Position numbers and translations under genes: made by a program | In this document: positions 21,529 through 23,796 of the stretch, one piece after another | How the letters are laid out: each line of letters begins with the position of its first letter | Numbering within the stretch: the first letter of the stretch is position 1 | The notes under the pieces: generated by a model | What the model was told of the DNA's origin: nothing | What the model saw: only the letters and a program-made list of their open reading frames with translations | Databases searched by the model: none | Assembly: GCF_020103725.1 (NCBI RefSeq) | Contig: NZ_JAHXBG010000018.1 | Span: 124,001 to 188,000 of the forward strand | Direction of reading: 5' to 3' | From: Hyalangium gracile | Lineage (GTDB): Bacteria > Myxococcota > Myxococcia > Myxococcales > Myxococcaceae | DNA: 64,000 nt

Positions 21529-22314
21529 ATGGATGCCAGCCTGCACTTCGTCCAGACGTTGGGGACCCTGCTGTCCCTGCTCGTGGGGATGCGCACCTCA
21601 TTGGATATGAGGGCGACCGGAACGAGCCAGAGGCCACAGGGGCAGGGGCGTCTTCGGAAGATCTTCCGGGACAACGGGCTGTCCATCGTCATGTTCGGTC
21701 TGTTCCTGGTGTTCTGGCTGGGACAGAGCCTGACGGGCCTGCATGCCTACAACGCGGAGCAACGCGAGCACGGCCAGTCACCCATCAGCTACGGTGAGTA
21801 TGTCCGCTCCGGCGAGTTCATCGAGTCGACGTTCGAGAACTGGGAGAGCGAGTTCCTCCAGATGGGGGCCTTCGTCGTCTTCTCCGCCTTCCTCTTCCAG
21901 CGAGGCTCCGGCGAGTCGAAGAACCCCTTGGGCGGGAACGAGGTGGACAAGGATCCACGCAAGGAAGCCCGTCCGGACTCTCCCGGTCCCGTTCACCGGG
22001 GAGGACTGGCCCTCAAGCTCTACTCCCACTCGCTCACGTTGGCGCTGTTCGGCCTCTTCCTCTTCTCCTTCGCCCTCCACGCGGTGGGCGGGGTGAAGCT
22101 CTTCAACGAGGAGCAGCTCCAGCACGGACAGCCGACGGTGAGCTTCTGGCAGTACGTGTCGGGCTCCCGGTTCTGGTTCGAGTCCTTCCAGAACTGGCAG
22201 AGCGAGTTCCTGTCCGTCGGGGTGCTCGTCGTCCTGTCCATCGTCCTGCGCCAGAAGGGCTCTCCCGAGTCGAAGCCCGTGCACGCGCCGCACCGGGAGA
22301 CGGAGGAGGCCTGA
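21529..22314 (+). CDS. DUF6766-type membrane protein with internal duplication
   Basis: 261 residues from ATG 21529, but 235 from ATG 21607 may be the real start because the first 26 residues look non-native. Two halves repeat the same plan: a hydrophobic helix with MFGLFLVFWLGQ or LFGLFLFSFAL, a YN/FN.EQ..HG segment, then FENWESEFLQM or FQNWQSEFLSV, a second helix and a polar tail. That gives four membrane segments. The domain usually occurs doubled; function unknown. Confidence 0.75.
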   Translation: MDASLHFVQTLGTLLSLLVGMRTSLDMRATGTSQRPQGQGRLRKIFRDNGLSIVMFGLFLVFWLGQSLTGLHAYNAEQREHGQSPISYGEYVRSGEFIESTFENWESEFLQMGAFVVFSAFLFQRGSGESKNPLGGNEVDKDPRKEARPDSPGPVHRGGLALKLYSHSLTLALFGLFLFSFALHAVGGVKLFNEEQLQHGQPTVSFWQYVSGSRFWFESFQNWQSEFLSVGVLVVLSIVLRQKGSPESKPVHAPHRETEEA

Positions 22315-22379: not shown

Positions 22380-23573
22380 TCAGGGGACGTGGCACACCTC
22401 CACGAGCTCGGCGATCGCCGACTCCAGAGGCACCTGCCGCTGCGCTCCGCCCCGCTCGCGGAGCTGGATCGAGCGCGCCGCCTGCTCACGCGCACCCACC
22501 AGCACGACGAACGGCACTCCCTCCTGGTGCGACTCCAGGATGCGGCGTGACAGCGTCTCGTTCCGCGCGTCCTCGCTCACGCGCAGTCCCGCGGCGCCCA
22601 GGCGTGCCCTGACCTCCGAGGCGTAGGCATGCGCGTCCGGCGATACCGGCAGTACCCGCAGCTGCTCCGGCGCGAGCCAGACGGGCAGCGAGCCCTGGTG
22701 GTGCTCGAGCAGCAGGCCGAGGAAGCGCTCCATGCTGCCGAAGATGGCCCGGTGCAGCATGGCAGGCCGTCTCCGCGCCCCCCCCGAGTCCACGTAGTGG
22801 AGGTCGAAGCGCTCGGGCAGCACGAAGTCGAGCTGGATCGTCCCGCACTGCCACTCGCGGCCGGCCCTGTCCTTCAGGATGAACTCCAGCTTGGGCCCGT
22901 AGAACGCGCCCTGGCCGGGTTGCATCCGGCAGTCGAGGCCCTCGCGTCTGGCCGCCTCGAGCAGCGCGGCCTCCGCGCGATCCCAGACTTCGTCGGCTCC
23001 CGCGCGCTGGGCGGGGCGACTGCTGAAGGCGACCTGGACGTCCTCGAACCCAAAGTCCCGGTAGAAGACGCGCAGCGAGCGACAGAATGCGGCTACCTCG
23101 TCGGCCACCTGCTCCTCCATGCAGAAGATGTGGCCGTCGTCCTGCGTGAACTGTCGCAGGCGGAACAGCCCGTGCAGCGCTCCGGAGGACTCGTTGCGGT
23201 GCACCAGTCCGAACTCCGCCAGCCGCACCGGCAGGGCGCGGAAGGAGGGAGCCATGCGCTGGAAGATCTGGATGTGGCCGGGGCAGCTCACGGGCTTCAC
23301 CGCGAAGAGGCGCTCGCCGTCATCCAGGACGAACATGTCGCCGCGGAAGTTCTGCCAGTGGCCGCTGCTCTCCCAGATGCGCTGGCCGAGGATCTGCGGC
23401 GTCCTCACTTCGCGGTAGCCGCCGGCGCTCAGCTCCCGGCGGACGCGCTCCTCGAGGAGCTGGTACAGGATGAACCCGCGGGGGTGCCAGAACACCATGC
23501 CGGGGGCCTCCTCCTGCAGGTGGAAGAGGTCCAGGCGGTCGCCCAGGGATCGATGATCGTGTTCGCTCAACAT
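22380..23573 (-). CDS. thrS: Compact threonyl-tRNA synthetase lacking TGS and editing domains
   Basis: 397 residues, only the class II catalytic core and the anticodon-binding domain; full ThrRS is about 640. Motif 2 (LVHRNESSGALHGLFRLRQFTQDDGHIFC) and motif 3 (LHRAIFGSMERF) are intact. The three zinc ligands of the active site are present in SCPGH, DDGHIFC and LHRAIF. The N-terminal TGS and N2 editing domains are missing entirely, so mischarged Ser-tRNA-Thr could not be cleared in cis. A housekeeping thrS presumably lies elsewhere. A threonine leader peptide and its promoter lie upstream, suggesting induction when charged tRNA-Thr falls. Confidence 0.93.
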   Translation of the reverse strand: MLSEHDHRSLGDRLDLFHLQEEAPGMVFWHPRGFILYQLLEERVRRELSAGGYREVRTPQILGQRIWESSGHWQNFRGDMFVLDDGERLFAVKPVSCPGHIQIFQRMAPSFRALPVRLAEFGLVHRNESSGALHGLFRLRQFTQDDGHIFCMEEQVADEVAAFCRSLRVFYRDFGFEDVQVAFSSRPAQRAGADEVWDRAEAALLEAARREGLDCRMQPGQGAFYGPKLEFILKDRAGREWQCGTIQLDFVLPERFDLHYVDSGGARRRPAMLHRAIFGSMERFLGLLLEHHQGSLPVWLAPEQLRVLPVSPDAHAYASEVRARLGAAGLRVSEDARNETLSRRILESHQEGVPFVVLVGAREQAARSIQLRERGGAQRQVPLESAIAELVEVCHVP

Positions 23574-23685
23574 TGCCGTTCTCCGTGTCGGTGGGTGAAG
23601 TGCCGGACCGGAGCGGGGTGCTGAAGCGTTGCGCGGAGCGCCCCGTCCGGTGTCCCGGCGGGGCTGCGGTGTCCGCGCGCTCAGC
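23574..23685 (-). promoter_or_regulatory. Putative attenuator between the Thr leader peptide and thrS
   Basis: On the transcribed strand a hairpin pairs GCCCCG with CGGGGC and encloses CCGG/CCGG around GACA (23640-23664). The CCCGCC in its first arm can instead pair with GGCGGG from the end of the leader ORF, giving the mutually exclusive folds expected of attenuation. No U-run follows, so control may work by Rho or by sequestering the thrS start. Confidence 0.5.
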
Positions 23686-23760
23686 TCACGTGCGCACGAC
23701 CGCCGGCCCGCCAGTGCGGGTGGTGGTGGTCGTGGTGGTGGTGAGCTGAACGAACTTCAT
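23686..23760 (-). CDS. Threonine-rich leader peptide of thrS
   Basis: A 24-codon ORF, ATG 23760 to TGA 23686, encodes MKFVQL, then eight Thr codons in a row (seven ACC, one ACG), then RTGGPAVVRT. Ten of 24 residues are Thr. It lies 112 bases before the compact thrS, in the same direction. A ribosome would stall on the Thr run when charged tRNA-Thr is scarce, the classical design of amino-acid attenuators. The predicted transcription start is at or next to its ATG, so it is probably translated leaderless. Confidence 0.82.
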   Translation of the reverse strand: MKFVQLTTTTTTTTRTGGPAVVRT

Positions 23761-23767
23761 GGCGGAC

Positions 23768-23796
23768 AAGATGAAGCGACGGATGCTTCTTGTCAA
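23768..23796 (-). promoter_or_regulatory. Sigma-70-type promoter of the thrS leader
   Basis: A perfect -35 TTGACA (23791-23796) is separated by 17 bases from CATCTT (23768-23773), a weaker -10. Seven bases further lies the leader-peptide ATG. Confidence 0.65.

Follow-up and report, generated by a model that had tools for sequence, protein, structure and literature searches.

In Escherichia coli, thrL, hisL and pheM-pheST are ribosome-mediated attenuators with a Shine-Dalgarno (SD) sequence before the leader and a U-tract terminator, and in pheST the target of leader-peptide attenuation is a synthetase gene. The threonyl-tRNA synthetase (ThrRS) gene thrS of E. coli is autoregulated by its product through tRNA mimicry, and Bacillus subtilis possesses, in thrZ, a second, conditionally induced ThrRS. 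Tandem T-boxes control thrZ (PMC2494555). In Anabaena, thrS2 (T2) encodes a second, editing-defective ThrRS that has kept a degenerate editing domain and is induced by zinc shortage via Zur (PMC4787780). For the duplicated synthetase gene hisS* (hisZ) of Bacillus, a His leader peptide acting on a transcription terminator has been predicted (PMC2965389). Mycobacterial polycysteine small ORFs are leaderless, contain contiguous Cys codons and control downstream translation, according to the account of Canestrari et al. 2020 given in PMC9031893. The literature searched contained no report combining a Thr leader, a ThrRS and attenuation, and none of leader-peptide attenuation in Myxococcota or myxobacteria.

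Here we describe a Thr-run leader ORF upstream of a second ThrRS gene, thrS2, in a myxobacterial genome of 11.7 Mb. The locus lies in G000:C18:124001-188000, a stretch of 64,000 nucleotides that was analysed as a whole and is referred to as the window. Taking all lines of evidence together, we consider it likely that synthesis of a backup ThrRS is controlled at this locus by ribosome-mediated attenuation, with its output at the level of the SD.

The leader ORF and its promoter

The leader ORF (23686..23760, reverse strand) encodes the 24-residue peptide MKFVQLTTTTTTTTRTGGPAVVRT, in which eight Thr residues are consecutive and ten are present in total; the Thr run provides the sensing codons and constitutes RNA segment 1. 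From the leader stop to the start of thrS2 at 23573 there are 112 nt. On re-reading of the sequence, these figures match the first-pass annotation exactly. The promoter that it had assigned to the leader was also recovered: a TTGACA -35 element lies on the reverse strand at 23791..23796, with its first T exactly 36 nt 5' of the leader start codon, and is followed after a 17-nt spacer by a weak -10 element, CATCTT (23768..23773, reverse strand), 7 nt 5' of the leader ATG. TTGAC stands exactly at -36 from the leader ATG or GTG in 61 of 74 rows and at -35 to -39 in 10 more. The -10 boxes are weak, with a CAYYTT-like sequence in most relatives.

An SD-like motif before the leader start was found in none of the 74 rows. 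Given TTGAC at -36 and the standard position of a -35 element, +1 falls on the leader start codon, which places the predicted transcription start at 23760. The combination of TTGAC at -36 with the absence of an SD suggests that the leader ORF is probably leaderless, with transcription and translation beginning at the same codon.

The occurrence of this arrangement by chance was assessed with the pattern TTGAC-N31-RTG-N(6-36)-five Thr codons. Its single match in the 11.7-Mb genome is the leader locus. Across 195 Myxococcota genomes the same pattern gave 46 matches, about 40 of them directly upstream of ThrRS2 and about six scattered, compared with about eight matches for the reversed control. 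The Thr-run leader is far from chance.

The same promoter geometry occurs, as an independent case, in front of a histidine biosynthesis gene of this genome. Upstream of hisG on G000:C5, the GTG-started leader MRLTSVHHHHAHHRLGPDGTARRAHAWMNA (L172 1438-1530, reverse strand) has TTGAC at -36 and is followed by a hairpin with TTTTTT, a U6 terminator, and then by hisG. In the relatives that were checked (L190-L213), hisG is likewise preceded by a His-run leader with the -36 geometry. Since a his gene behind a His leader is the textbook case of attenuation, the shared geometry strengthens the reading of the Thr leader as an attenuator. From its sequence, classical terminator attenuation appears to operate before hisG, and the two cases suggest that leaderless leader ORFs are a general style of attenuator in myxobacteria. 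A generic promoter and terminator scan flagged nothing around the Thr leader, including its -35 and -10 elements; as it also overlooked the obvious terminator before hisG, this negative result carries little weight. Patterns of Leu/Ile/Val and Trp runs with the same promoter geometry gave chance-like matches only in this genome. In a genome of another Myxococcota family, MNSCVHHHHHHHQTRGVG was found with TTGAC at -36 (L185; G119:C19:31014-31085, reverse strand), and no hisG motif was found nearby.

A second ThrRS without editing domain

The gene downstream of the leader, thrS2 (22380..23573, reverse strand), was identified by Pfam and PDB alignment as encoding a second ThrRS of 397 aa. Pfam assigns it two domains, the class II core and the anticodon-binding domain, and no others. 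Its alignment with full-length ThrRS opens at residue 250 of 6vu9 and residue 241 of 1qf6, so that ThrRS2 begins at the start of the catalytic domain. The TGS and tRNA_SAD (N2 editing) domains are absent from ThrRS2 and present in ThrRS1; the earlier description of the enzyme as editing-less was thereby borne out. The zinc ligands C97, H148 and H274 and the motif 2 Arg are retained in all 72 ThrRS2 orthologues and, judged by these residues, ThrRS2 should be enzymatically active.

The housekeeping ThrRS1 is full-length (642 aa from its likely Met) and is encoded on G000:C15, with no Thr-rich ORF upstream of its gene. This corrects the first-pass annotation on one point: the ThrRS gene behind the leader encodes the second ThrRS, not the housekeeping one. 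In a tree of 60 proteins, ThrRS2 forms one clade (99/92), separate from myxobacterial ThrRS1 and from the sampled proteobacterial ThrRSs. The possibility that ThrRS2 is an ObaO-like obafluorin-immunity copy was rejected: the position equivalent to Gly463 is Ser in ObaO (PMC11252418) and Gly in 70 of 72 ThrRS2.

One thrS2 (L016, G041) contains an in-frame TAG behind an intact leader; the copy may be broken, or the TAG may be a sequencing error. Two genomes (G052 and G058; L121 and L122) carry a second short ThrRS that is very divergent (46-47% identity, on a long branch). Upstream of it, too, lies a small Thr-rich ORF (ATTTCTTP...), which lacks the TTGAC geometry and may have arisen independently or diverged strongly.

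Conservation of the leader across Myxococcota

Of the 195 Myxococcota genomes, 68 contain ThrRS2; the search gave 69 matches at E<=1e-125, of which one is full-length. We examined 72 ThrRS2 loci, i.e., those of the 68 genomes and four further loci. These include loci of Polyangiaceae bins (L034, L063) and L160, which belongs to another Myxococcota family. A Thr-run ORF lies upstream of the ThrRS2 gene in all 72, roughly 100-135 nt before it. Gene neighbours vary between genera while leader and thrS2 remain together; by gene order, the conserved unit is the leader plus thrS2. A DUF6766 protein that adjoins thrS2 in convergent orientation (21529-22314 of the window, forward strand) is outside this unit.

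In columns with a Thr majority, mean entropy at codon positions 1, 2 and 3 was 0.57, 0.28 and 1.05 bits, the third position being the most variable. The comparison of homologous loci proposed by the first-pass annotation hence turned out in favour of the leader, with a Thr-rich ORF at every locus and free third codon positions. A whole-ORF pN/pS ratio was discarded as proof of coding and replaced by this per-position entropy, as the ratio for the whole leader (0.79, near neutral) was no better than that of another frame (0.70 in frame +1). Considering that the whole-leader ratio is only 0.79, purifying selection can be discerned in the Thr run but not across the whole peptide.

This bears on the alternative that the 24-aa peptide is a functional small protein, or that the run is merely a chance low-complexity ORF. 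A GGxGxVRV tail conserved in many leaders would fit the former. However, the tail and RNA segment 2 (see below) occupy the same stretch, and the conservation of the tail is explained by the RNA pairing there. Furthermore, the leaders vary in length and, apart from the Thr run, in most of their residues, with pN/pS at about 0.8, whereas the position of the ORF and its Thr run persist in 72/72 loci, which makes this alternative very improbable.

The 571 Thr codons of the leaders comprise ACC (339), ACG (152) and ACT (80), with no ACA, while twelve genes of the window use ACG 177, ACC 101, ACT 15 and ACA 8 times. The leaders are thus shifted toward ACC and ACT and away from the genomic favourite ACG. 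ACC and ACT are the codons expected for tRNA-Thr(GGU), and the shift may tune sensing by the leader to one tRNA-Thr isoacceptor.

T-box tRNA sensing and ThrRS autoregulation by tRNA mimicry, as in E. coli thrS, are both established for thrS elsewhere (for T-boxes, PMC2494555) and would offer another explanation for control at this locus. Neither, however, requires a Thr-codon ORF or accounts for its conservation, and no T-box or other Rfam element was matched in the window at gathering score. We regard this explanation as highly implausible.

Competing RNA helices

RNA segments 2 to 6 follow the Thr run, all on the reverse strand. Segment 2 (GGCGGGCCGGCGGTCGTGCGC, 23692..23712), at the end of the leader ORF, pairs with segment 3 (GCGCGCGGACACCGCAGCCCCGCC, 23657..23680), which can alternatively pair with segment 4 (CCGGACGGGGCGCTCCGCGC, 23631..23650). 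Segment 5 (23602..23618) contains the anti-SD CTCCG at 23613-23609 and may also pair with segment 4. Segment 6 (23581..23585) is the SD of thrS2, CGGAG, and pairs with segment 5. Helices 2:3 and 3:4 are mutually exclusive, and 5:6 hides the thrS2 SD.

In isolated folding, each neighbouring pair of segments formed in most of the examples listed, with mean z scores over 43 loci of -3.6 (2-3), -3.8 (3-4), -0.9 (4-5) and -1.8 (5-6). Covariation was assessed with an alignment-free swap test, in which cognate and species-swapped arms were compared among 25 sequences under 95% identity. Helices 2:3, 3:4 and 5:6 covaried (z -4.0, -5.2 and -5.2), and the signal was retained in nine sequences under 80% identity (z -3.8, -4.1 and -2.7). 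The control pairs 2:4, 2:5, 2:6, 3:5, 3:6 and 4:6 did not covary (z -0.24 to +2.7), nor did helix 4:5 (z +0.9; -1.1 on the nine divergent sequences). Single loci illustrate the exchanges: L034 pairs GCGTGGG:CCCACGC in place of GTGCGT:ACGCAC in the others, the SD of L063 is hidden by TCCTTGG:CCAAGGA, compensatory to CTCCG:CGGAG in the others, and the pair counts of the outer 3:4 helix include AU/GC and UA/AU/CG exchanges. RNAalifold on a MAFFT alignment recovered only an invariant 3:4 core and no covariation, because helix registers differ between genera; the swap test was used in its place.

The stretch with which segment 2 opens is separated from the leader stop by about 30 nt and from the first Thr codon, upstream of it, by about 32 nt. 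Owing to this position, a ribosome stalled early in the Thr run would leave the stretch free, and a ribosome at the leader stop would cover its 3' part. The design of ribosome-mediated attenuation, which the first-pass annotation had proposed, is thus supported by leaders at 72/72 loci, free third codon positions and mutually exclusive helices, and we are highly confident that the leader regulates thrS2 via translation of its Thr codons.

Output of the attenuator

The output step is less firmly assigned than the sensor, because helix 4:5 does not covary and the SD is often paired at equilibrium. The sequence after 3:4 contains at most 3 T per 8 nt in 67/72 loci. In the his leaders of these genomes, by contrast, the hairpin is directly followed by T5-T6. 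The Thr leader hence lacks the U-tract of thrL/hisL-type transcription attenuators, and the absence of a T-run makes control of translation initiation likelier than intrinsic termination.

Folding gave a paired thrS2 SD in 61 of the 62 unique loci; as a point against the scheme, SD pairing by itself still reached 88% with segment 5 shuffled. With segment 3 removed and segment 6 not yet made, the anti-SD bases re-paired to segment 4 in 51 of 61 loci, versus 32% once segment 4 was shuffled. At equilibrium with segment 3 removed, the SD was still paired in many loci (median unpaired 0.06 vs 0.006), so that 4:5 would need kinetic precedence. Nor could the ON and OFF states be told apart by equilibrium folding of the 'starved' RNA at full length. 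The link between sensor and SD through 4:5 is partly supported by these models, and the SD pairing data fit an OFF state of 3:4 plus 5:6 and an ON state of 2:3 plus 4:5.

A different output is conceivable with the same sensor. Following classical thr and his attenuation, where the output is a terminator, 3:4 could act as a terminator or pause without U-tract, perhaps assisted by Rho, leaving 5:6 a secondary role. That 3:4 is the strongest conserved hairpin, that classical terminator attenuation apparently precedes hisG in the same genome, and that 4:5 has weak support all speak for such a terminator; the fact that hardly any locus has a T-run behind 3:4 and the covariation of 5:6 at the SD speak against it, and we consider it unlikely. 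Weighing these points, we lean towards the thrS2 SD as the site of output, so that SD sequestration, i.e., a translational rather than a transcriptional output, is more likely, which corrects the first-pass annotation.

Proposed mechanism and function

In the proposed scheme with output at the SD, transcription would start at the leader start codon, where a ribosome would load at once onto the leaderless transcript. When charged tRNA-Thr is plentiful, the ribosome would pass the Thr codons, reach the stop and cover segment 2; 3:4 would form, 5 would pair with 6 and the thrS2 SD would be hidden (OFF). If charged tRNA-Thr runs short, through Thr starvation or because the main ThrRS is lost or inhibited, the ribosome would stall in the Thr run. 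Helix 2:3 would then form, and the freed segment 4 would take up the anti-SD in segment 5 before segment 6 is made, leaving the SD open for synthesis of ThrRS2 (ON). Ribosome stalling, the transcription start, the 4:5 step and the induction of thrS2 are steps that we infer.

Judging from thrZ and Anabaena T2, spare ThrRSs are made on demand, and by analogy demand for ThrRS2 would be read as uncharged tRNA-Thr. The absence of editing carries a risk of Ser-tRNA-Thr formation by ThrRS2. Such products may be cleared by ThrRS1 or another factor, in analogy to Anabaena, where T1 was proposed to clear Ser-tRNA-Thr (PMC4787780). If the scheme is true, the leader would provide myxobacteria with a reporter of tRNA-Thr charging of their own. 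Amino-acid starvation initiates myxobacterial development, i.e., the formation of fruiting bodies. This raises the question of why an editing-free ThrRS should be kept for Thr shortage, a stress of the kind that triggers this development. One speculative and rather doubtful answer is that a leaderless poly-Thr attenuator acting on translation makes an editing-free ThrRS inducible by starvation. Thr shortage or a ThrRS-targeting antibiotic would then switch on a synthetase without proofreading, which might serve programmed Ser-for-Thr mistranslation or inhibitor tolerance.

Comparison with known systems

The thrS2 leader combines sequence hallmarks of leader-peptide attenuators, namely an ORF of cognate codons at 72/72 loci and exclusive 2:3 and 3:4 helices placed relative to the sensing codons. 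Like thrL, hisL and pheM-pheST, it has a cognate-codon-rich ORF and segments 1-4 with 2:3 competing against 3:4. Unlike them, it has no U-tract and a helix that hides the SD, it is probably leaderless, and its target is a duplicated ThrRS. Service to a duplicated synthetase gene is shared with the predicted leader of Bacillus hisS*, where the output is a transcription terminator, the host a member of the Firmicutes and the amino acid His (PMC2965389). The earlier designation as a 'new regulatory type' was too strong, because the known pheST leader and the predicted hisS* leader (for the latter, PMC2965389) already belong to synthetase genes.

As a second ThrRS, myxobacterial thrS2 resembles thrZ and Anabaena T2, the latter also being editing-defective. 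ThrRS2 differs from Anabaena T2 in having no editing domain at all instead of a degenerate one, and control by a leader ORF sets thrS2 apart from the tandem T-boxes of thrZ and the zinc limitation that governs Anabaena thrS2 (PMC4787780). Closest in style, as far as the account in PMC9031893 describes them, are the mycobacterial leaderless polycysteine small ORFs, with which the thrS2 leader has in common a short ORF with a run of codons for one amino acid and would, on the reading given here, also share the leaderless start and the control of downstream translation; the thrS2 leader differs from them in its amino acid (Thr), its phylum (Myxococcota), its synthetase target and its conserved 2:3, 3:4 and 5:6 helices. 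What would be new here is the combination of a probably leaderless Thr-run ORF, an apparent SD-level output and a duplicated synthetase, kept together across a phylum.
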